Shown here one piece after another: positions 2,551-61,289 of a stretch of DNA of 64,000 nucleotides. The first letter of the stretch is position 1. The number at the start of each line of letters is the position of its first letter. The notes beneath the pieces were generated by a model, which saw only the letters and a program-made list of their open reading frames with translations, made no database searches and was not told the origin of the DNA. The position numbers were made by a program, and so were the translations under genes. Source of the stretch: Halichondria panicea (Eukaryota > Porifera > Demospongiae > Suberitida > Halichondriidae); assembly GCF_963675165.1 (NCBI RefSeq), contig NC_087386.1, positions 6,206,066 through 6,270,065 on the forward strand, given 5' to 3'.

Positions 2551-5500
2551 ACCCACACACACTCACACACACACACACACACACACACCCACACCACACA
2601 CAGGTAAGAAGCCAGCCTCATCTTCCCGTGTCCTTGAGCCTTTCAACGAATTTCTAAAGACTCTAAAAAAACCAGCTGCACAAGACATTGTTGACCACCT
2701 AAAAAGGTACTTTCTGCGTATATAATTATGTAAACCTCTGTATAATTATAGTTCCTGTAGCTAGACTGGGATTTTAAAATGTCTTCAACTTCAAGCATGA
2801 TCACTGAATAAAAATGCTTCATTTTCCATGTTCTTGTAATAATGTGGTACTTTTTTGTGTGTTTTACCACTAACATTTTGTTTGCTATTGATTATGTCGA
2901 CATCATTTTGTTTTCAGTTTTCACAAGCATATATCGGATAGAGCCACGGCTACTGTGGAGGAGAAGAGCGAAGCTGTTCAAGAGTTCTATATGGTAAGCA
3001 CGTATGGAGTGCTGGGATGTGTCCACACTGGTCGGTGGTGGTGGTTGGTACTAACCACCTCTTAGGCCGATGTTAGGCTGTATAAATGTGTGTTTTGAAT
3101 TGAGTAATTGAGTTGAAAAAAGCCACCCACTCGAGAAATGTCTGGGCATATCCCTGAGAGTGAACCCCTATAAGTATAGTGATGCAAACTACTATGAAAT
3201 AAGGGACACCTTTTAGAATCAGGCAACTCAACCTAACCTATATATAGAAGCATGTAGCACCGAGGGCTTATAAAGAGAAGAGGGCATGCAAATCAGGGCT
3301 ATTCTGGGCAATTTTGGTTGTTCTAATTATACAGCGGATACTATAACATTATTTTGTTCTAGATATCTGGACAAATGGAAATGTTCTAGTTTTAGAGTTG
3401 TGCAATTAGATAGCTCTGCCCATATACATTAATGGTGGCTTTCCGGCTGTTGATTTACATACCACCGTCACGTACGATAGTGCTGTTTCCACAAATTAAC
3501 ACAATGGTATCTGGTGGATTTGAATCACAATAATATAACAATGTATCAGAAGTATACTGTTCCAATGTGTGAGAATTCACCTCTGCATCATTTTAGTCCA
3601 TTGTATATTGTACATGAATTAATTATTATTATATCTTAGTTCCTTAATAGTTTTTTAGTTTCCTTAATGCACTATTTGAACTATTTGAACTAACTAAAGC
3701 AGCTATCAATTTACAATACAAGCCATGAACAGCAGTGGCGGATGTAGGGGAGCTTCAGTAGTCAAATTTGTGTTTATCAATAACTTATGCAAACTAACCA
3801 GACAAAACCCCTTTCTTCTTTATTTCTCGGATCTGCCACTGAACAGGCTACACATTTTTATCATTTTTGCAGTATTGACCAGTAATATTAATTTTTCACG
3901 TACGATAGTGCTTTTTCCACAAATTAACACAATGGTATCTGGTGGATTTGAATCACAATATATAACAATGTATCAGAAGTATACTGTTCCGATGTGTGAG
4001 AATTCACCTCTGCATCATTTTAGTCCATTGTATATGTACATGAATTAATTATTATTATATCTTAGTTCCTTAATAGTTTTTTAGTTTCCTTAATGTACTA
4101 TTTGTACTATTTGCACTATTTGAACTAACTAAAGCAGCTATCAATTTACAATATAAGCCATGAACAGCAGTGGCGGATGTAGGGGAGCTTCAGTAGTCAA
4201 ATTTGTTTAATGTTTATCAATAACTTATACAAACTAACCAGACAAAACCCCTTTCTTCTTTATTTCCTGGATCTGCCACTGAACAAGCTACAAATTTTTA
4301 TCATTTTTGCAGTATCGACCAGTAATATTAATTTTAGCAACTGCATGTATGATTATTGTATGTGGCAATGTCTCTACCACGTGTGTATTGGTGTATATAG
4401 GACATGGCAGAGAGACTGCAGACACACACTCTGTTCCGTAACATGACAGAGGAGCAACAGGGAGAGATGTTGGATGGGATTGAGAAACACCTCATGACCA
4501 ACATATACCACGAGTGAGTGTCACATGATCAGGGATGTGCCCTCAAGTGGTGTCACATGACCAGGGACGTGCCCTCAAGGGGTGTCACATGACCAGGGAC
4601 GTGCCCTCAAGTGGTGTCACATGACCAGGGATGTGCCCTCAGGTGGTGTCACATGACCAGGGATGTGCCCTCAGGTGGTGTCACATGACCAGGGATGTGC
4701 CCTCAAGTGGTGTCACATGACCAGGGACGTGCCCTCAAGGGGTGTCACATGACCAGGGACGTGCCCTCAAGTGGTGGCTATTTTTAATCCTCAATCTCAC
4801 AAATTTACCTTTTTTGTGTACGTGTAGTGAGCTCATAGGAGGTGGTTATGTGGTGGTTAGTGTCAGCCACCACTGACCAGTGTGGGCACATCCCTGCATG
4901 ACTGTTGTATGACTCTGTCTAGCAGTATAGTTAGTGTCCGCGTGTTCCTCATTTTGTTCCTATTGGCTCTTCGTCTCTAATATCCTATCACATGACTCTG
5001 ATTAGCGTGTCAAAGATCGTAATTGTACATGCATTGATTAGCCTCGATTCCAGGCCACCCTCGAAACTCGAAACTCTATTCTCCCTCCCTGTGGCCTGGT
5101 ATTAATAGAGGCTAGCATTGACAGTACTGTACATTTAGTCCTACTTATTGCTTTGTGTATATGTACCCTAGCTATCACATGACCTTGCAGTGTGTACAGC
5201 CCAGCGTCTTGTGACGATGAGATGAAGGATCTGTTGTTCCAGAGGCGTATTCGCATGCTCAACTGGCTGGAGACAAAACATCTGGACATACCTCTCAAAC
5301 TAGACCACCCTGGGGTACAGGAGCTGATCACCAAGGGACAGCAGGGTACGCTCAGTTCAGTGTCCGTAAGCTATAAGCTAGGATTGTTAATTAAGATATA
5401 ATAATAACTATATGGGTGGCTTTTTAAGCCCTCGGGATTTGGGACACTATAACACATAGATACCGAATTTATTTGTAAGTACTGTGTGTACATCATGACA

Positions 5501-25019: not shown

Positions 25020-27457
25020 CTATAGTCCTAATTCCCGTGGTAACTGCTCGAGTGCTCCGACCCTGGCACTGAAACCACCCAGTGCTTGGATGAGCATCTG
25101 TTGCACTTTGCTACCGTCCATTTGTACGCAGTGTGTGAAGCCTTGCAAGGTTAGGGGACTGTGTATGCCCATTGTCTGTGTGTAGGGGGGTAAGGGGTGT
25201 GGTCATGATGTAAATGGGTGTGGTCTTACTGTGTTGAGGAAGGTATCAAATGAGATGAGCATTTGAGTGATGTCTTCGCGAGTGGTTGTCTGGCAGACGA
25301 GGAGGCTGTGTGGGCGTGTGGGTGTGTGTGTGGGTGTGAGTGTAATGTACGTAAGACCAGCACACACTAGTATAGGCTGCATCAGATTATAGACAATGTA
25401 TGAACAACTATAAATACTAGTACATGTAACAAAGGGGGAGGAGTTACTTGTTAATGGCGGTGGTGGTGCTCTTGAGAATGACGAGCAGTTGAGACAGGAA
25501 TATGCTCGCTTCTTGTTTGTCAGACAGTGACTGAGGATTGTTGTTGATGGCGTAGAAGATCCGACCACTGCTGGAAATGAGAACGCACAAAAGTTAATAT
25601 AGCAGAGAGAGATGAACATTTTGTTGCAAGTAAATTGGTCAAACAGATAATTAGCCTTAATTGATGGAATGACATGCAGCTGGTGTGTGGTTGTTACGGG
25701 TAAGGGCTTCAACCTATATATAGACGGCAGATAATGTCATGCATGAGTGGTTGCCTGGAATGGACTAGCGACATTTTGACTGTACGACTTATCGTGATGT
25801 CTACTCATGCATCACAAACATGTTTAATCATCAATCAACCAAAGTTCAACTGGTACACATACAAAAAGAAAAATATGACTGTTGAGATTAAAGTTATGGC
25901 CACTTAAACTTCATCACACCCATCCACACACGCCCCCTCCACCACTTACACACAGCACTGTTTAGAGAAGGCCTTAATGACCTCCCACACCCCCTCCACC
26001 ACTCACACACAGTACTGTTTAGAGAAGGCCTTAATGACCTCACACACGCCCCCTCAACCACCCACTCACCAGCACTGTTCGGAAATGGCCTTAATGATCC
26101 CGATGACCCATTCCAGTTGCTCCAGGGGAGTGGGCGGTTGAGCACCAACCAGACGCAGGAGATCATCACACGACGGCCGCAATAGCTTAGTGATGAGTGG
26201 GAGGGGCTGACCTAGCGGGCTAGTAGGAGAAGTGGGCGTGGTACTCAAACTGCCTCCAGAGGAAGTACGCTATAAAATAAGCACACATAAGTGAAATAAA
26301 ACATACGAACAGGCCGACTATAGCTATGCACTGTTACATGTCTGTTACATCCAGTGTATGAAAGATCACTTGACTTACTTGAAACAACCCTAGTCTGTTG
26401 GGAGTTGTCACATGACTAGTCACATGACGTCTCTGTGTGGTCGCCAGCCCCTACAAACACCCAGCATTACAATAGCTAGTGTGTAGCACCATACATTCAG
26501 CGAGACCTTACCCGTGCTTTGAGTAGCGATATCCTCTCAGATACGGATGCCAGCTGAGCTATGGACTGAGGCAGTACACCATCATACCTGTGAGGGTACG
26601 AGTAAAGAGATGCTCATGTCAGCACATTATATCTTGAATCAGCAAAATTGAATATTTAAACGATCAAAAAACAATCTGTGAAGAATACTCATACACTGAG
26701 CTGCATAAAGAAACCAACCTCCCCCAAACCAAAATCTGAAAATCCCCACAATAATTATATGTTCATGTTTACACACATTTACTACACATAATTAGAGAGT
26801 GCGATAAAATAACCTCTCTCCATATACGATCATGTTGTGTACAACGGTCCTAATAATTTATGTACAACACGCTACGGCCTTGGGTTCAGAGTTTAAGAGT
26901 TAATAATGACAGTAGACATTTAATAAACGTCCATTAGACCTTGCACCCCCACTCACCCCGATACATTGGCGAAGGCTCTGAGTAGCGCTGTGGCCTTGGA
27001 GGTGAAGTCATCCAGCACTCCGACGGTTGGCACCATCCGGTCCCTGCTCTTCACGTGCTGCAATAGACCTGCCACACACGAGAACTGGATACCAGGTGGC
27101 AGCGGGTCTCGGAACACTGCTATCCAATGCCTACACACACACACACAGTAATAAACCAGGTGGCAGCGGGTCTCGGAACACTGCTATCCAATGCCTACAC
27201 ACACACACAGTAATAAGCCAGGTGGCAGCGGGTCTCGGAACACTGATATCCAATGCCTACACACACACTAATAAACCGTAGCTTTGAATTGTTACATACA
27301 GTGCAGATTGAACAATGATAGCAGTAAGTACACGATGTACATGCACTGCATAGTATGCAGCTCTAGAGTAACGTGTGTTCCTTACTTGTCAATCAGCGTG
27401 ACGGTGTCTTGGAGTTTCCATGGAGGCTTGATTCTAAGAATGTCCTGCCTGTGTGTG

Positions 27458-37688: not shown

Positions 37689-39077
37689 ATGGCGAATGGA
37701 GAATCTAAAGACCTACTGTATAGGCAACACAGTTCATGGTAAGTGTGAGTACCCTCCCACCCTACAATAGATACCTCCATCAGCTGGCTAAGATATCATT
37801 CTCACTACTCTCATGTGTCTGGATCTGAGAGGTGTCAGATCTTCTAAGTCACGTACCTTTCAACGGCCATCTAGCTAGCTAGCTGCATATATCTGTGGAT
37901 TTTATCATTTCAGTCTGTTATTATTGTGTACAGAATTGCACCTTATTATCTCAGCTACCCCACCACTAGATACCTCACACACACACACCTCGAGTATCAG
38001 AGTGTACTAATCCCGTCTCTCTCTCTCACAGTTTGTTTCGTTCTCCTACTTTCTTTGTGATTGCCGGAGGAGTGACTGACAGTGACTGTGTGTACTCTGT
38101 CCTGCCCCTCTACCATTCCCACGGCCTCGCACACGGTGGAGGGCCTATGATCTACACAGGAGCCACTCTCGTCATTAGGAAAAAGTTCTCTGCCAAACAC
38201 TTTTGGACCGATAGTGCAAAGTACAACTGCACTGTGAGTTGGCTAATTGACTGGGGCTGACCCACTTACATTAATGTCTTAGATAGACAGTACGTGTTGT
38301 TATGCTTTCAGCTATTCTTGCCTTTGCTTTCACTACACAACTTGAGCTATGTATCACTGTGTATGGGTGACATCACTTCATTTATATCCACTGACTCCCC
38401 CACTGTGCAGATGGTGTGCACGATTGGGGAGTTGAATCGCTACGTGATGACCGAACCCCCTCAACCCACTGACACACAACACAAAGTACGTCTAATCATC
38501 ACTGCAGGACTCAGAAAAGCGCTGTGGCTGGAATTCCAGAAACAATTTGAAGTGGATCACATTATCGAGTTTTATGGCTCTACTGAGGGCAACTTTGGTA
38601 TCATCAACATTGACAACAAGCCAGGATCTGTTGGAGCTCTCCCACTGTTTGTACCGTCCCTTCAAAACGTCACTATCCTGAAGCTTCATCCGGAGACTGG
38701 CGATTACCTAAGAGATGAGAATGGTTTCTGTGTCGAGTGTGATATGAGCGAACCTGGTGAAACTGTTTGTGAAGTCTCTCCCTTCTACGGATATCGAAAC
38801 AAAGAAAACTCGGCAAAAAAAATTCTTAGGAATTGTTTCAAAGCAGGAGATGCTTTTTTCAGAACTGGAGACATTATGCGCATTGACGAGGAAGGTTGGG
38901 TGTATTTTTGTGATCGATCTGGGGACATGTTTCGTTGGAAGGGGGAGAACGTATCCACGGCAGAGGTTGAGACTCGTATTGCTACTGTGTTGAAGTTGAC
39001 AGATGTGGTGGTGTACACGGTGTTGAGGTTCCTGGTAACGAGGGGCGTGCTGGAATGGCTGCCATTGTGGGGACTCT
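37689..39077 (+). pseudogene. 5'-truncated fatty acid transport protein (SLC27A/FATP) fragment, unit 1
   Basis: In-phase pieces: 37689-37738 (a short start exon, MANGESKDLLYRQHSS), 38032-38233 and 38411 to about 39018. The two large exons encode the C-terminal half of a very-long-chain acyl-CoA synthetase/transporter: VYSVLPLYHSHG, TLVIRKKFSA, EFYGSTEGNFG and RSGDMFRWKGENVSTAEVE. The N-terminal membrane region and the AMP-binding P-loop (TSGTTGLPK) are missing. Near 39018 two extra bases shift the frame before VEVPGNEGRAGMAA, and the tail then joins ACBD6 sequence and stops. The start exon joins in phase, so a short product of about 200 residues is possible, but the lost P-loop argues against enzyme activity. 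Confidence 0.8.
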
Positions 39078-39228
39078 GGTCATGCAGGGGAGCACTCTGG
39101 CTGGATGAGACACAGAGGAGGCACTAACTGACGACAAGAAGACAATGTTCGACTGGTGTAAGGAGGGGAATGAAAAGAAAGTACAATCTCTACTCTCTGA
39201 CACCAATGTCAATCAAACTGACCAAGAG
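39078..39228 (+). pseudogene. ACBD6 exon 3 fragment fused to the FATP tail
   Basis: It closely matches 33462-33602 (DTEEALTDDKKTMFDWCKEG and the rest up to the donor GAG/GTGAGT). The two sources share GTCATGCAG at the junction, a likely microhomology. No other ACBD6 exon follows here. Confidence 0.85.
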
Positions 39229-41069: not shown

Positions 41070-41213
41070 TATAGCCAGTAGCCATCTCAGTGTGTGCTGA
41101 TGTAGCTCCATTGTTGCTGTGAACAATGTGTGTGGGCGGGTATAATTAGTGCAGGTCATAATAGAGGGGCTCTTTTAATAGTGTTCCCACAACATCCTTG
41201 ACTGTGTATCCAT

Positions 41214-42436
41214 TAGTGTGTGTGTTGTCTCCCCCCACACGGTGGACCACCCCCCTATACTGCATTAGTGTGTGTATTGTCTCCCCCCACACGGTGGACC
41301 ACCCTGCACTAGTGTGCGTGTTGTCTCCCCCCACACAGTGGACCACCCCCCTATACTGCATTAGTGTGTGTATTGTCTCCCCACACGGTGTGTGTGTTGT
41401 CTCCCCACACGGTGGACCACCCCCCTATACTGCATTAGTGTGTGTATTGTCTCCCCACACGGTGTGTGTGTTGTCTCCCCACACGGTGGACCACCCCCCT
41501 ATACTGCATTAGTGTGTGTATTGTCTCCCCCCACACAGTGGACCACCCCCCTATACTGCATTAGTGTGTCCCCCCACACAGTGGACCACCCCCTATACTG
41601 CATTAGTGTGTGTATTGTCTCCCCCCACACAGTGGACCACCCCCCTATACTGCATTAGTGTGCGTATTGTCTCCCCCCACACAGTGCACCACCCCCCTAT
41701 ACTGCATTAGTGTGCGTATTGTCTCCCCCACACAGTGGACCACCCCCCTATACTGCATTAGTGTGCGTATTGTCTCCCCCCACACAGTGGACCACCCCCC
41801 TATACTGCATTAGTGTGTGTATTGTCTCCCCCCAAACAGTGGACGACCCCCCTATACTGCATTAGTGTGCATATTGTTTCCCCCCACATAGTGGACCACC
41901 CCCCTATACTGCATTAGTGTGTGTGTTGTCTCCCCCCCACACCGTGGACCACCCCCCTATACTGTATTAGTGTGTGTATTGTCTCCCCCCACACAGTGGA
42001 CCACCCCCCTATACTGCATTAGTGTGTGTGTTGTCTCCCCCCACACAGTGGACCACCCCCTATACTGCACTAGTGTGTGTATTGTCTCCCCCCACACAGT
42101 GGACCACCCCCCTATACTGCATTAGTGTGTGTGTTGTCTCCCCCCACACGGTGGACCACCCCCCTATACTGCATTAGTGTGTGTGTTGTCTCCCCCCACA
42201 CAGTGGACCGCCCCCCTATACTGCATTAGTGTGTGTGTTGTCTCCCCCCACACAGTGGACCACCCCCCTATACTGCATTAGTGTGTGTGTTGTCTCCCCC
42301 CACACAGTGGACCGCCCCCCTATACTGCATTAGTGTGTGTGTTGTCTCCCCCCACACAGTGGACCACCCCCCTATACTGCATTAGTGTGTGTATTGTCTC
42401 CCCTCACACAGTGGACCACCCCCTATACTGCATTAG
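41214..42436 (+). repeat. 52-bp splice-acceptor minisatellite, short array (about 24 units)
   Basis: The unit is TAGTGTGTGTGTTGTC, then a C-run, then CACAGTGGACCACC and CCCCTATACTGCAT. It is the same unit as the large array at 54715. Several units, mostly in the left half, read CACGGTGG, which destroys the AG, and some are internally shortened. The right edge joins ACBD6 intron 4 sequence at TAGTCAGTTTGGCTGAG. Confidence 0.95.
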
Positions 42437-42716
42437 TCAGTTTGGCTGAGTATCTATGGTAACCTTGGAGATCTTTTTGTATTTGCATTAATGATGGTGA
42501 TCAAGGAAACATATTATACCCTATAGCTGTAGAAGTTGAGCTGGTTATTAGATTTATTCGCGGTAATAATTATTGTCTTTTTTTGAATTCCTTATAATTA
42601 TATTCGTGATTGTATTTCCTCTACAGCTGTGTCATGTGATCATCATGCTGTCATCTCTTATCTACTACAAGTGGGATTCCTATCTCAAGATGTGATTGAG
42701 AATCAAGCACCTATAT
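42433..42716 (+). pseudogene. ACBD6 intron 4 / exon 5 fragment, unit 1
   Basis: Matches 34014-34290: intron sequence, then the acceptor and exon 5 (from 42626, AVSCDHHAVISYLLQV), with an internal deletion and changed end. Confidence 0.85.
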
Positions 42717-52318: not shown

Positions 52319-53085
52319 ATGGCGAATGGAGAATCTAAAGACCTACTGTATAGGCAACACAGTTCATGGTAAGTGTGAGTACCCTCCCACCCTACAATAG
52401 ATACCTCCATCAGCTGGCTAAGATATCATTCTCACTACTCTCATGTGTCTGGATCTCAGAGGCGTCAGATCTTCTAAGTCACCTACCTTTCAACGGCCAT
52501 CTAGCTAGCTAGCTGCATATATCTGTGGATTTTATCATTTCAGTCTGTTATTATTGTGTACAGAATTGTACCTTATTATCTCAGCTACCCCACCACTAGA
52601 TACCTCACACACACACACCTTGAGTATCAGAGTGTACTAATCCCGTCCCTCTCTCTCACAGATTGTTTCGTTCTCCTACTTTCTTTGTGATTGCCGGAGG
52701 AGTGACTGACAGTGACTGTGTGTAATCTGTCCTGCCCCTCTACCATTCCCACGGCCTCGCACACGGTGGAGGGCCTATGAACTACATAGGAGCCACTCTC
52801 GTCATTAGGAAAAAGTTCTCTGCCAAACACATTTTGGACCGATAGTGCAAAGTACAAATGCACTGTGAGTTGGCTAATTGACTGGGGCTAGCTGACCCAC
52901 TTACATTAATGTCTTAGATAGACAGTACGTGTTGTTATGCTTTCAGCTATTCTTGCCTTTGCTTTCACTACACAACTTGAGCTATGTATCACTGTGTACG
53001 GGTGACATCACTTCATTTATATCCACTTACTCCCCCACTGTGCAGATGGTGTGCACGATTGGGGAGTTGAATCGCTATGTGTTGG
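52319..53085 (+). pseudogene. FATP fragment, unit 2 (broken)
   Basis: Copy of the unit 1 fragment: start exon at 52319, exon at 52662 and the first bases of the third exon at 53046. It carries an in-frame TAA at 52723 (a Tyr codon in unit 1), a one-base insertion near 52830, and a TGA formed at the first splice junction. It ends after TIGELNRYV, where it joins COLGALT sequence. Confidence 0.9.
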
Positions 53086-53095
53086 TCCAACCCCC

Positions 53096-54523
53096 TGGCT
53101 GTATCCGAACCTTAACCCCTTCGAGGAGCATGACGAGAGGTTCGTCCATGTTGCCCAGCTGAGACAGGAAGGTCTGGAGGCGGCCAGGCGTTCAGGGGCA
53201 GACTACCTCTTTGTGAGTTATCAGTGTCGCCATCTCTAGCCTCGTTCCTGGCCCATCTATTGTAACGACCTATAGTGCATCCAGCTTAGAGAGTAGATTA
53301 CCACAAATTTGTGAGTAGCTGTACTTAAATGTAAATATCTTTTGATCGGAACATTTCTAAGAAATGGTGTTGATACCAATGTGTAGGTGAATGACCATGA
53401 AAACAGTAATCTTGTACAGCTAAGGTCCTAGACTTCATCACATAATTGTTCAATGGTTTAGGTATCCTGACTATCCCTTTATGGGTGTTACATTATGTTC
53501 ATAGTGTTTATAATTCATGATTTACTGGTTTTCAGGTACACTTTTGGTTAGAGTAATAACTTCTGACAAATTAATAGCTTAGCTTTCAAATTTCTGTAGT
53601 AAGATAACAGATAAATGGGCTACATTTTGATACCAAGAACATCCTATATCCCATTGTTGAGATAACACTGAAAAGCTACATAATTACTATTTTCTACTGT
53701 TTTGATGACATCAGCAGCTGCAAACCTTTATCAACCACTATAACAATTTGTTGTTGTTCTATTAATCACCACAAACCCACCACCTTATGTTTCCATGAAA
53801 ACATTTTTGAGTATGTTGTAGCTTGGTCATTCACCTACACATTAGTATCAGCACAATTTCTTAGAAAGGTTCCAATCAAAAGAGATTTACATTTAAGTAC
53901 AGCTACTCACAAATTTGTGGTAATCTACTCTCTAAGCTGGATGCAGTGTGCCATTATGATACAGTGAAACCTGTCTATAGTGGTCACCCTGTAAGCAGGT
54001 CACCCTCTATAATACAGCCAGGTTAATGAGGCCCAAAGTCTCCATAGCATGTGTTTGGACCTGTGTTAGCAGGCCATCTCTTTATTTCAACCACTGTTAG
54101 TCTGCCCAAGACAGTAGTAGATACAGTTTTAGTTATTGCAATTTTGGTATCCACAGTATCTAGCTCAGATTAACTATACAATTGTTGTTTATCCAGCGGC
54201 TAGACTGTGACAACTTTCTGGTGAACAACAGGACACTAGGGATTCTGATGGATCAGCAAAGGTAAGTCAGTGCGTGTACAGTCCATAGGGAGGGGATAAC
54301 TTGTCTATATGTACGAGGCTTGCACTGAATACATTATTTGCTGACCTATGCACTTTATTATGGTACACGTATGTACATGTAGAACAAGTTTGAATTGTCC
54401 CCTTCCCTCCACTGTAGATCTGCCTATGCACATTCTGAACACCGAGGTGTTTGGGTTCAGAGGACTATGAGAGCCTGGACCTCGCTGCTCAGGACTTCCT
54501 CAACTTTAAGTTGGAGAACCTTG
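53096..54523 (+). pseudogene. Procollagen galactosyltransferase, upstream exon pieces, unit 2
   Basis: Pieces 53096-53212, 54197-54261 (donor intact here, GTAAGT) and 54418-54523. The third piece keeps the segment lost in unit 1 (AAQDFLNFKLENL) but has an 11-bp deletion that shifts its frame. Phase shows that exons are missing between the second and third pieces. The third piece ends in phase 1, which matches the exon at 60016 across the minisatellite, so the array lies in what was one COLGALT intron. Confidence 0.85.
53275..53949. mobile_element. Foldback element, unit 2 copy
   Basis: Same element as 39479-40166, nearly identical, with a short internal deletion near 53728. Confidence 0.8.
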
Positions 54524-54714
54524 GTAAGTCCTTCCCCCTTAAGGCTGCGGTGTCATCTGCTCTTTGTTAGTGTAGCCAGTAGCCATCTCAGTGTGTGCTG
54601 ATGTAGCTCCATTGTTGCTGTGAACAATGTGTGTGGGCGGGTATAATTAGTGCAGGTCATAATAGAGGGGCTCTTTTAATAGTGTTCCCACAACATCCTT
54701 GACTGTGTATCCAT

Positions 54715-57700
54715 TAGTGTGTGTGTTGTCTCCCCCCACACAGTGGACCACCCCCCTATACTGCACTAGTGTGTGTGTTGTCTCCCCCCACACAGTGGAC
54801 CACCCCCCTATACTGCACTAGTGTGTGTGTTGTCTCCCCCCACACAGTGGATCACCCCCCTATACTGCATTAGTGTGTGTGTTGTCTCCCCCCACACAGT
54901 GGACCACCCCCCTATACTGCACTAGTGTGTGTGTTGTCTCCCCCCACACAGTGGACCACCCCCCTATACTGCACTAGTGTGTGTGTTGTCTCCCCCCACA
55001 CAGTGGACCACCCCCCTATACTGCATTAGTGTGCGTGTTGTCTCCCCCCACACAGTGGACCACCCCCCTATACTGCACTAGTGTGTGTGTTGTCTCCCCC
55101 CACACAGTGGACCACCCCCCTATACTGCATTAGTGTGTGTGTTGTCTCCCCCCACACAGTGGACCACCCCCTATACTGCACTAGTGTGTGTGTTGTCTCC
55201 CCCCACACATTGGACCACCCCCCTATACTGCATTAGTGTGTGTGTTGTCTCCCCCCACACAGTGGACCACCCCCTATACTGCACTAGTGTGTGTGTTGTC
55301 TCCCCCCACACAGTGGACCACCCCCCTATACTGCACTAGTGTGTGTGTTGTCTCCCCCCACACAGTGGATCACCCCCCTATACTGCATTAGTGTGTGTGT
55401 TGTCTCCCCCCACACAGTGGACCACCCCCCTATACTGCACTAGTGTGTGTGTTGTCTCCCCCCACACAGTGGACCACCCCCCTATACTGCATTAGTGTGT
55501 GTGTTGTCTCCCCCACACAGTGGACCACCCCCCTATACTGCATTAGTGTGTGTTGTCTCCCCCCACACAGTGGACCACCCCCTATACTGCACTAGTGTGT
55601 GTGTTGTCTCCCCCCACACATTGGACCACCCCCCTATACTGCATTAGTGTGTGTGTTGTCTCCCCCCACACAGTGGACCACCCCCCTATACTGCATTAGT
55701 GTGTGTCCCCCACACAGTGGACCACCCCCCTATACTGCACTAGTGTGTGTGTTGTCTCCCCCCACACAGTGGACCACCCCCTATACTGCACTAGTGTGTG
55801 TGTTGTCTCCCCCCACACATTGGACCACCCCCCTATACTGCATTAGTGTGTGTGTTGTCTCCCCCCACACAGTGGACCACCCCCCTATACTGCACTAGTG
55901 TGTGTGTTGTCTCCCCCCACACAGTGGACCACCCCCCTATACTGCACTAGTGTGTGTATTGTCTCCCCCCACACAGTGGACCACCTCCCTATACTGCATT
56001 AGTGTGTGTGTTGTCTCCCCCCACACAGTGGACCACCCCCCTATACTGCATTAGTGTGTGTGTTGTATCCCCCCACACAGTGGACCACCCCCCTATACTG
56101 CATTAGTGTGTGTATTGTCTCCCCCCACACAGTGGACCACCCCCCTATACTGCACTAGTGTGTGTATTGTCTCCCCCCACACAGTGGACCACCCCCCTAT
56201 ACTGCACTAGTGTGTGTATTGTCTCCCCCCACACAGTGGACCACCTCCCTATACTGCACTAGTGTGTGTATTGTCTCCCCCCACACAGTGGACCACCCCC
56301 CTATACTGCATTAGTGTGTGTGTTGTCTCCCCCCACACAGTGGACCACCCCCCTATACTGCATTAGTGTGTGTGTTGTCTCCCCCCACACAGTGGACCAC
56401 CCCCCTATACTGCATTAGTGTGCGTGTTGTCTCCCCCCACACAGTGGACCACCCCCCTATACTGCATTAGTGTGCGTGTTGTCTCCCCCCACACAGTGGA
56501 CCACCCCCCTATACTGCATTAGTGTGCGTGTTGTCTCCCTCCACACAGTGGACCACCCCCCTATACTGCATTAGTGTGCGTGTTGTCTCCCCCCACACAG
56601 TGGACCACCCCCCTATACTGCATTAGTGTGCGTGTTGTCTCCCCCCACACAGTGGACCACCCCCCTATACTGCATTAGTGTGCGTGTTGTCTCCCCCCAC
56701 ACAGTGGACCACCCCCTATACTGCATTAGTGTGTGTGTTGTCTCCCCCCACACAGTAGACCACCCCCCTATACTACATTAGTGTGCGTGTTGTCTCCCCC
56801 CACACAGTGGACCACCCCCCTATACTGCATTAGTGTGCGTGTTGTCTCCCCCCACACAGTGGACCACCCCCCTATACTGCACTAGTGTGTGTATTGTCTC
56901 CCCCCACACAGTGGACCACCCCCCTATACTGCACTAGTGTGTGTATTGTCTCCCCCCACACAGTGGACCACCCCCCTATACTGCACTAGTGTGTGTGTTG
57001 TCTCCCCCCACACAGTGGACCACCCCCCTATACTGCACTAGTGTGTGTATTGTCTCCCCCCACACAGTGGACCACCTCCCTATACTGCATTAGTGTGTGT
57101 GTTGTCTCCCCCACACAGTGGACCACCCCCCTATACTGCATTAGTGTGTGTATTGTCTCCCCCCACACAGTGGACCACCCCCCTATACTGCATTAGTGTG
57201 TGTATTGTCTCCCCCCACACAGTGGACCACCCCCCTATACTGCATTAGTGTGCGTGTTGTCTCCCCCCACACAGTGGACCACCCCCTATACTGCATTAGT
57301 GTGTGTGTTGTCTCCCCCCACACAGTAGACCACCCCCCTATACTACATTAGTGTGCGTGTTGTCTCCCCCCACACAGTGGACCACCCCCCTATACTGCAT
57401 TAGTGTGCGTGTTGTCTCCCCCCACACAGTGGACCACCCCCCTATACTGCACTAGTGTGTGTATTGTCTCCCCCCACACAGTGGACCACCCCCCTATACT
57501 GCACTAGTGTGTGTATTGTCTCCCCCCACACAGTGGACCACCCCCCTATACTGCACTAGTGTGTGTATTGTCTCCCCCCACACAGTGGACCACCCCCCTA
57601 TACTGCATTAGTGTGCGTGTTGTCTCCCCCCACACAGTGGACCACCCCCCTATACTGCACTAGTGTGCGTGTTGTCTCCCCCCACACAGTGGACCACCCC

Positions 57701-60040
57701 CCTATACTGCATTAGTGTGCGTGTTGTCTCCCCCCACACAGTGGACCACCCCCCCTATACTGCATTAGTGTGCGTGTTGTCTCCCCCCACACAGTGGACC
57801 ACCCCCCTATACTGCACTAGTGTGTGTGTTGTCTCCCCCCACACAGTGGACCACCCCCCTATACTGCACTAGTGTGTGTGTTGTCTCCCCCCACACAGTG
57901 GACCACCCCCCTATACTGCATTAGTGTGTGTGTTGTCTCCCCCACACAGTGGACCACCTCCCTATACTGCACTAGTGTGTGTGTTGTCTCCCCCCACACA
58001 GTGGACCACCCCCCTATACCGCACTAGTGTGTGTATTGTCTCCCCCCACACAGTGGACCACCCCCCTATACTGCATTAGTGTGTGTATTGTCTCCCCCCA
58101 CACAGTGGACCACCCCCCTATACTGCATTAGTGTGTGTATTGTCTCCCCCCACACAGTGGACCACCCCCCTATACTGCATTAGTGTGTGTATTGTCTCCC
58201 CCCACACAGTGGACCACCCCCCTATACTGCACTAGTGTGTGTGTTGTCTCCCCCCACACAGTGGACCACCCCCCTATACTGCACTAGTGTGTGTATTGTC
58301 TCCCCCCACACAGTGGACCACCTCCCTATACTGCATTAGTGTGTGTGTTGTCTCCCCCACACAGTGGACCACCCCCCTATACTGCATTAGTGTGTGTATT
58401 GTCTCCCCCCACACAGTGGACCACCCCCCTATACTGCATTAGTGTGTGTATTGTCTCCCCCCACACAGTGGACCACCCCCCTATACTGCATTAGTGTGTG
58501 TATTGTCTCCCCCCACACAGTGGACCACCCCCCTATACTGCATTAGTGTGCGTGTTGTCTCCCCCCACACAGTGGACCACCCCCCTATACTGCACTAGTG
58601 TGTGTGTTGTCTCCCCCCACACAGTGGACCACCCCCCTATACTGCACTAGTGTGTGTATTGTCTCCCCCCACACAGTGGACCACCCCCCTATACTGCATT
58701 AGTGTGTGTGTTGTCTCCCCCCACACAGTGGACCACCCCCCTATACTGCATTAGTGTGCGTGTTGTCTCCCCCCACACAGTGGACCACCCCCCTATACTG
58801 CATTAGTGTGTGTGTTGTCTCCCCCCACACAGTGGACCACCCCCCTATACTGCATTAGTGTGTGTTGTCTCCCCCACACAGTGGACCACCCCCCTATACT
58901 GCATTAGTGTGTGTGTTGTCTCCCCCCACACAGTGGACCACCCCCCTATACTGCATTAGTGTGTGTTGTCTCCCCCCACACAGTGGACCACCCCCTATAC
59001 TGCACTAGTGTGTGTGTTGTCTCCCCCCACACATTGGACCACCCCCCTATACTGCATTAGTGTGTGTGTTGTCTCCCCCCACACAGTGGACCACCCCCCT
59101 ATACTGCATTAGTGTGTGTGTTGTCTCCCCCCACACAGTGGACCACCCCCCTATACTGCATTAGTGTGTGTTGTCTCCCCCACACAGTGGACCACCCCCC
59201 CTATACTGCATTAGTGTGTGTGTTGTCTCCCCCCACACAGTGGACCACCCCCCTATACTGCATTAGTGTGTGTATTGTCTCCCCCCACACGGTGGACCAC
59301 CCCCCTATACTGCATTAGTGTGTGTGTTGTCTCCCCCCACACAGTGGACCACCCCCCTATACTGCATTAGTGTGTGTATTGTCTCCCCCCACACGGTGGA
59401 CCACCCCCCTATACTGCATTAGTGTGTGTTGTCTTCCCCCACACAGTGGACCACCCCCCTATACTGCATTAGTGTGTGTTGTCTCCCCCACACAGTGGAC
59501 CACCCCCCCTATACTGCATTAGTGTGTGTATTGTCTCCCCCCACACAGTGGACCACCCCCCTATACTGCATTAGTGTGCGTGTTGTCTCCCCCCACACAG
59601 TGGACCACCCCCCTATACTGCATTAGTGTGTGTGTTGTCTCCCCCCACACAGTGGACCACCCCCCTATACTGCATTAGTGTGTGTATTGTCTCCCCCCAC
59701 ACAGTGGACCACCCCCTATACTGCATTAGTGTGCGTGTTGTCTCCCCCCACACAGTGGACCACCCCCCTATACTGCACTAGTGTGTGTATTGTCTCCCCC
59801 CACACAGTGGACCACCCCCCTATACTGCATTAGTGTGCGTGTTGTCTCCCCCCACACAGTGGACCACCCCCCTATACTGCATTAGTGTGCGTGTTGTCTC
59901 CCCCCACACAGTGGACCACCCCCCTATACTGCATTAGTGTGCGTGTTGTCTCCCTCCACACAGTGGACCACCCCCCTATACTGCATTAGTGCGCGTATTG
60001 TCTCCCCCCACACAGTGGACCACCCCCCTATACTGTACAG
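54715..60040 (+). repeat. 52-bp splice-acceptor minisatellite, large array (about 100 units)
   Basis: Each unit is a T/G-rich run, TTGTCTCCCCCCACACAG, then TGGACCACCCCCCTATACTG and a short linker (CATTAG or CACTAG). The last unit runs without a break into the COLGALT exon at 60016, whose first codons are the same TGGACCACC... (VDHPPILY). The unit is therefore that exon's branch/pyrimidine region, its AG and its first 20 coding bases. Variants are GTGTGTTG, GTGTATTG, GCGTGTTG and occasional CACATTGG. Larger blocks are duplicated within the array: the marker CACAGTAGACC occurs near 56755 and 57325. Confidence 0.97.
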
Positions 60041-61289
60041 TCAGTACATCTCCAGACCACCCCCTGTCAAGAACAACTTGGGGTTGGACGCGGTAAGCTG
60101 TCTCTACTATTACAGTTATGTTGTATGTGTACGGAAATCATAAAAGTTCACTGATAATTTCCAAACAATATTTGGTAGGTGTTCATGATTGGGCTAGTAC
60201 GGAGGCCAGAAAGAAGGAACCGGATGATTTTAAGCCTGGCCGAGCTCAACTTCAACTACACCCTCTTTGATGCTGTCGATGGAAGGTGAGAGAAAATTAA
60301 TAATTATACATAGTATGGAGTAAGGTTTTAGATAGTGGCTTATCACGTCCAACCCCAAATTGTCATTGAGAGAGGGTAGTCTTGAGATGTACTGCATGGT
60401 GTAGAGTATAGGTTCAGTGTGTGTGAGGGGAGACATAACTGGCTGTACAATACAGAGGGATGGGGAAGGAGACAATACACACTAATTGATACACAAGGAT
60501 GTGGTGGGGAACTCATATTTAAAAGAACCTCTTTTGTTTATTTTATCCCGGCCAGTACAGACAGTTGAATCAGAGCTACCTGGACAGTATGGGCATCAAG
60601 TACCTACCTGGCTGGAAGGACCCTTGGAGAGAACGACCTATGACCTTTGGAGAGGTCGGCTGTTTCCTTAGTCACCACACGATATGGCAGCAGGTGAGTG
60701 GGCGTTAGTGGACACTTGTTGATGTGTACAGAAAGTATTGCAACCTGTTGCATTGTGGGCACTTGTAACTGTGTGAAACCTGTCTAATGTGGTCACCCTC
60801 TATAATAGTACAGCCAGGTTAATGTGCTCCTAAGTCTCCTGTGTGCGGACACAAACATTAGCTATTTGAGCAAACTAGACACTTTCATAAACTGCTTTAA
60901 CTGCTAATGAGGCGGTGGTTGAAAAATAATAAACTACTTGTCTTCGAAGGCGACGAAAAACACTGTTTTCTAATCGATCCAATCGTTGCTTTGTAGAATC
61001 CCCATAATGTTAAAGTCATTAAAATATAAAGTTGATTGCGTGTCCGTTATGTCAACGCACGGATGAATGCTCTACTGAGCATCTTGTTATAATAGCCACT
61101 GTTGGTCTGTCCAAGGGTGACCAGTATAGACAAGTCTTACTGTACCTCTCTTGCCCCCCAGATGATGACGGAGGGTCTGGATCAAATCCTGATTCTGGAG
61201 GATGATGTCGTGTTTGAGCCCTACTTCCGACATGACCTCACTAGAGTGCTGGAAGAGTCCAATCGGATCACACCAAACTGGGACCTCAT
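60016..61289 (+). CDS. Procollagen galactosyltransferase C-terminal catalytic exons (partial)
   Basis: Four exons with intact splice sites and consistent phase: 60016-60092, 60179-60285, 60561-60693, 61162-61289. They encode VDHPPILYSQYISRPP, AVFMIGLVRRPERRNRM with the AVDGR block, LPGWKDPWRERPMTFGEVGC with FLSHHTIWQQ, and LILEDDVVFEPYFR (the EDD metal-binding motif of the GT25 domain). This is the second glycosyltransferase half of COLGALT1/2. The gene stops after NWDLM: the next exon (family YVGRKR region) is absent and an ACBD6 fragment follows. Upstream pieces are out of frame, so a full enzyme is unlikely, but this part itself shows no lesion. Confidence 0.88.

Follow-up and report, generated by a model that had tools for sequence, protein, structure and literature searches.

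Why would an intron end in about a hundred copies of its own acceptor, and what becomes of a gene that carries them? The window analyzed here comprises 64,000 nucleotides of the sponge Halichondria panicea (RefSeq GCF_963675165.1, contig NC_087386.1, positions 6,206,066 to 6,270,065 of the forward strand; C10 below). Positions 54712–60035 of its plus strand form a single tandem array with a period of 52, 103.0 copies, 96% matches and a score of 9606 in TRF. Each 52-bp unit joins 32 nt of intron end, CATTAGTGTGTGTGTTGTCTCCCCCCACACAG, to 20 nt of exon start, TGGACCACCCCCCTATACTG, the latter belonging to exon 7 of a COLGALT gene. Counted one by one, the junctions also number 103, and the AG before the exon part is intact in 97 of them. 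The last unit runs unbroken into a 77-nt exon at 60016–60092 (plus strand); its exon part doubles as the first 20 nt of that exon, after which comes the donor GTAAGC. The same unit recurs in a second array at 41211–42437 (plus strand; 24.1 copies by TRF), with 21 recognized junctions, an AG in 15 of these, and no exon 7 after it. The score of the main array, together with 1085 exact matches to the 18-mer core of the unit in the 131-Mb genome against 0 for a reversed-pattern control, rules out chance or a simple repeat. The junction minisatellite at 54712–60035 is thus confirmed as real.

The repeated junction is one that a gene uses. The exon 5′ of the array, at 54418–54523, ends in phase 1 with GTAAGT next to it, and its join to the exon part of the unit reads G|TG GAC, or VD. 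The exon 7 peptide and the next exon align to human COLGALT1 at ‘HPPAEPSRFIS’. The two best protein matches are NCBI-named COLGALT-like models of Halichondria panicea. The initial annotation had described a genuine in-phase intron–exon junction repeated about 100 times, the last unit continuing seamlessly into the COLGALT exon at 60016, and both statements hold. An orthologue that began this exon otherwise than with VDHPP was to count against it; the residues in other animals are not strictly these, yet they can be aligned at this position. With seven non-Halichondria COLGALT proteins compared, the residues at the exon part of the unit are VDHPP in P0004 and VNHPP in P0003, and the same position reads VNHYP in Amphimedon, VNYPP in Geodia, VFHPL in Ephydatia, VDHKD in Sycon and LNAGD in Corticium. 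These residues vary but are coding in the other COLGALT proteins, and hence the unit derives from the gene: it is amplified sequence of the COLGALT intron 6/exon 7 acceptor junction. An inserted foreign satellite is ruled out by the alignment of the exon part with coding sequence and by a locus at C10:4578k, where the unit stands single on flank motifs similar to those of the window array. An array-encoded protein was also sought with a 100-aa translation of the array, and none of the 171 candidates (eligible proteins of ~55–175 aa) matched at E ≤ 0.001.

The search of the genome for the unit, which the initial annotation had proposed, reveals a family of loci. The AG-less form of the unit has 178 exact matches; among the matches listed, all places of the 18-mer core and of the AG-less form lie on C10, as do 10 of 10 matches of a rarer unit variant. 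Matches to the array flanks, at 18 places for the left and 20 for the right, are likewise all on C10, between 4.58 and 6.41 Mb. Paired by hand, they give 14 loci with both flanks, 4 with the left only and 6 with the right only, and the unit-bearing COLGALT-derived loci on C10 come to 23 or 24, including the two of the window and one with a single unit. The left-only locus at 6388k and the right-only locus at 6398k may be the two ends of a single array. Unit matches without flanks occur, among the matches listed, near 5.835, 5.863, 5.892, 6.277 and 6.336 Mb, the last of which may be part of the locus at 6342k.

Across these loci the unit number forms a series. There is 1 unit at 4578k, 3 at 5670k and 8 at 5571k; the second window array has its 21 junctions, and the long arrays that were traversed hold 41, 43, 44, 89 and 103 recognized junctions. 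Six further arrays with both flanks span ~2.3 to 5.0 kb, as judged from their coordinates. At right-only loci the distance to exon 6 allows at most 15, 65, 94, 117 and 133 units, and 189 if 6388k and 6398k are a single array; these right-only bounds, the shortest excepted, refer to loci of which only ~1.5 kb of sequence each was covered.

A comparison of the COLGALT copies shows where the long arrays reside. The copy at C10:5670k, which carries 3 units, has a single open frame over 11 exons with GT–AG introns, and sequence resembling the last exons follows downstream of its exon 11. Its product carries PF01755 (112.4 bits) and has homologues named procollagen galactosyltransferase; GT25 domain and homology together identify this gene as COLGALT, the window copies being partial. 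PF01755 has 13 matches in the genome, all on C10. Searches of the genome with single exons gave 1 match for exon 11, 19 for exon 8 and 30 for exon 6 (all lower bounds), and 5670k is the sole copy found with exon 11. In the window, all on the plus strand, the copy at 53–61 kb retains the second half of exon 2 (53096–53212), exon 3 (54197–54261), exon 6 with a frameshift, as it lacks 11 nt relative to the intact gene (54418–54523), and, beyond the array and exon 7, exon 8 (60179–60285), exon 9 (60561–60693) and exon 10 (61162–61289); exons 1, 4 and 5 were not found and exon 11 is absent. Of the copy at 39–42 kb there remain half of exon 2, exon 3 and a portion of exon 6, its array being the last element, so that both window copies are broken. 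Fatty-acid transport/acyl-CoA ligase-like exons, recognized by eye, lie directly upstream of the truncated copies, at 38261–39127 and 52896–53162, and the gene model P0002 begins with non-COLGALT sequence.

The other traversed long arrays sit in comparable surroundings. Exon 11 is lacking at 5687k, which also has gaps in exons 5 and 9, and at 5802k, which has a gap in exon 10; the copy at 5902k is without exons 1, 2, 4, 5, 10 and 11, and that at 6410k is without exons 4, 5 and 11 and has a partial exon 6, with the proviso that some ends of these four copies fall outside the piece analyzed. All six fully traversed copies with more than 20 units are therefore broken or missing exons. The single-unit copy at C10:4578k is itself a remnant that keeps exons 7 and 8 and a portion of exon 9, in which a stop occurs.

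Could the arrays have built the cluster? On this account, unequal exchange between neighboring arrays drove the segmental duplication of COLGALT on C10, and the presence of arrays in most duplicates found is in keeping with it, as are the loci with one flank (4 left only, 6 right only), which are expected if duplication breakpoints fall inside arrays. Against it stand the copy at C10:5054k, which has exons 1–3 and 8–10 but no exons 4–7 and no array, and the other duplicated genes that lie between COLGALT copies. We regard this account as unlikely. As to orientation, the COLGALT copies at 5.67–5.92 Mb of C10 are almost all on the minus strand and those at 6.25–6.41 Mb on the plus strand, like two opposed clusters.

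How the arrays themselves grow can be read from near-identical copies. Between the copies at 5747k and 5882k, the left flanks agree at all 1500 positions compared and the right flanks differ at 3 of 1524, yet the flank-to-flank span is 4998 nt in one and 4322 nt in the other; this difference in span, 676 nt, equals 13 × 52. Within arrays, runs of identical units reappear: runs of 5 in the window array, at lags of 10 and 23, and runs of 5 to 9 in the 5687k array, at lags of 22 and 25. The 13-unit difference and the recurring runs fit block duplication or unequal exchange. Mean unit differences over five arrays are 2.03–3.45 within and 2.27–3.32 between arrays, boundary units not being separated; as the distances within are not clearly below those between, local homogenization appears weak. 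Distances to the 5670k copy (~0.45–0.59 on the left, with 10 of the 17 copies other than that of winA included; at least 0.19 on the right) were not used, the flanks being non-homologous along their length. Long near-identical repeats are a known hazard of assembly, and one amphioxus case of this kind was mis-assembled in the draft genome, according to PMC3087553. Against an artefact that inflated the number of copies or loci, arrays of different length have variant units of their own; the window array, for one, holds 27 distinct units in the 101 that were parsed. We give this account the least credence of all.

We consider it probable that this is a ‘mirage’-type minisatellite, grown by unequal exchange or block duplication in COLGALT segmental duplicates, the long arrays being mainly a non-regulatory by-product. 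The COLGALT intron 6/exon 7 acceptor junction would have been the seed unit inside the segmental-duplicate family of Halichondria panicea, and unequal exchange or block duplication would have multiplied it in duplicates released from selection; in a copy that is transcribed, splicing would go to the last junction. The 3-unit state at 5670k could be a contraction rather than the starting state, and the single-unit remnant at 4578k could be a collapsed former array.

The consequences for splicing can be followed junction by junction. When exon 6 is joined to each junction of the window array, translation ends at a stop for 102 of the 103 and does so within ten codons for 91, typically as VDHPPILH-stop via the TAG in CATTAG or CACTAG; the last junction alone reads through exon 7. 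The stop after each upstream junction arises because a TAG lies inside the unit, and it speaks against the repeat-containing isoforms that had been envisaged for this locus. The 3-unit gene at 5670k behaves alike, its two upstream junctions stopping within ten codons and the third reading on. Two of 44 junctions read through in the c5802 array, and in the 6410k array the last junction also reads through, but the frame no longer fits at the end of the exon. Choice of the last acceptor gives an exon of 77 nt and choice of the penultimate one an exon of 129 nt. From exon definition, the last one or few acceptors would be expected to win. The last junction would be chosen because no other forms, with the donor that follows, an exon as short as 77 nt, upstream slips running into a stop. 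The NCBI-named models P0001 and P0002, which at the exons tested match the 5802k and 6383k copies, respectively, agree with this, exon 6 being joined to the last junction in each of them. Any transcribed copy would presumably use the last acceptor.

Might the arrays nevertheless have a function? They could form a bank of stop-coupled acceptors that lowers COLGALT output, either by acting as a tunable poison or by binding U2AF-like factors like a sponge. The intact AG in 97 of 103 junctions and the stops that follow 102 of them, for 91 within ten codons, would suit such a role, and the intact gene also carries two stop-coupled extra acceptors. The stops, however, are a simple consequence of the TAG in the unit, and the traversed long arrays sit in the broken copies described above. 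Variation is greatest at positions 14, 11 and 3 in the 331 of 354 parsed units that were aligned (23 were excluded by length); the A of the AG ranks sixth of 52 with changes in 26 units, the G is changed in 4, and the AG-less form recurs at its 178 places in the genome. These counts give no sign of selection for the acceptor, a weak argument since exchange spreads variants. We judge a function of this kind very improbable. Its sharper version, in which the arrays are a length-tunable poison device whose unit number sets the loss of COLGALT pre-mRNA, strikes us as more improbable still; if true, fast changes in length would make dosage vary heritably throughout a family of loci. The sequences offer nothing that would favor the splicing sponge or silencer suggested in the initial annotation, and under the by-product reading that we prefer, the long arrays probably have no job.

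Two further, unrelated genes of this genome carry smaller repeats of splice sites. In the window, the minus-strand SWT1 gene (model P0121, transcriptional protein SWT1-like) holds a 62-bp acceptor-junction repeat of 3 copies at 27091–27268 and a 57-bp donor-junction repeat of 2.9 copies (TRF) at 25925–26097, the extra copies of which by eye are without a consensus donor. Its two upstream acceptors reach a stop and the third yields the annotated HWIAVFRDPLPPGIQF, the model joining to the last junction of the repeat. KHWIAV of this protein is also present in Geodia SWT1, and the genome holds a single match to the exon sequence. With junction repeats on both the acceptor and the donor side of SWT1, the phenomenon is not confined to COLGALT. 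A 21-bp repeat in an intron of EIF3L on contig C17 (L057 7266–7341) sets four CAG acceptors in tandem; TGA directly follows the first three, and the last yields IYQFQS in a gap-free alignment to human-type EIF3L. Since this unit is without exon sequence, it is a splice-site repeat and not a strict mirage. It was the one acceptor-site repeat in a survey of three other contigs, which took 30 kb around DEAD-helicase matches, a sample too small for a rate. Two further repeats were observed: a 32-bp minisatellite of 8.2 copies at 4513–4776 of the window, which begins at an apparent donor after the peptide EKHLMTNIYHE, and a 30-bp repeat of 3.7 copies at L047 2745–2858, whose unit has a GTAAGT-like and a TTTCTTCGCAG-like motif.

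The initial annotation knew of no described system of this kind, and here it must be corrected. ‘Mirage’ minisatellites are described at exon–intron boundaries of the amphioxus genes Adh3 and the globins BflGb6 and BflGb9, where, as RT-PCR shows, they leave regular splicing undisturbed (PMC3087553). In the literature searched, with most subscription journals outside its scope, no account of a sponge case or of splice-acceptor minisatellites was found. CeRep25B of C. elegans (PMC4039745) and MSY2 at DDX3Y (PMC3039753), on the parts of those papers at hand, are not of this kind. Closer are the variable internal tandem repeats at exon–intron boundaries of human duplicated genes, which, according to PMC2812944, share with the sponge case minisatellite length variation at such boundaries in recent paralogues; their mean unit is 30 bp repeated four times, and novel introns with transcript support are reported for them, none of which is seen in the sponge. 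The Rogers model, as cited in PMC3087553, explains intron gain by duplicated AGGT proto-splice sites and likewise has splice-site sequence duplicated inside a gene. AGGT is absent from the consensus of the 52-bp unit, and the sponge array has made no new intron.

It is with the amphioxus mirages of PMC3087553 that the sponge array compares most fully. Both are tandem repeats over an authentic intron–exon boundary, on the acceptor or donor side, adjoining an authentic exon; both have splice signals in many units, units of comparable length (10–160 bp in amphioxus; 52, 57 and 62 bp in the sponge) and copy numbers that vary between near-identical copies, the sponge comparison being between duplicated loci. 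Mirages are further characterized by unstable length and by concerted evolution within a cluster, boundary units excepted; on these points the sponge shows the 13-unit difference between near-identical duplicates and overlapping unit distances within and between arrays. Regular splicing is documented by RT-PCR in amphioxus, and the sponge gene models would fit it. The length series of 1, 3, 8 and ~40 to 103 units on related flanks provides a natural test of how the spliceosome chooses among near-equal acceptors, and also bears on the growth of junction repeats under relaxed selection. In the features tested, the sponge array fits the definition of a mirage, and it differs in phylum, in size and in its spread through a gene family: it has 103 units, against 6 and 3 in two haplotypes of amphioxus BflGb6, and occurs at the 23 or 24 duplicated loci, with long arrays in broken copies. 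A curiosity of lancelets is thereby extended to a sponge, at more than ten times the size of the amphioxus globin case, and the sponge array is an extreme case of a rare oddity named earlier in those animals.
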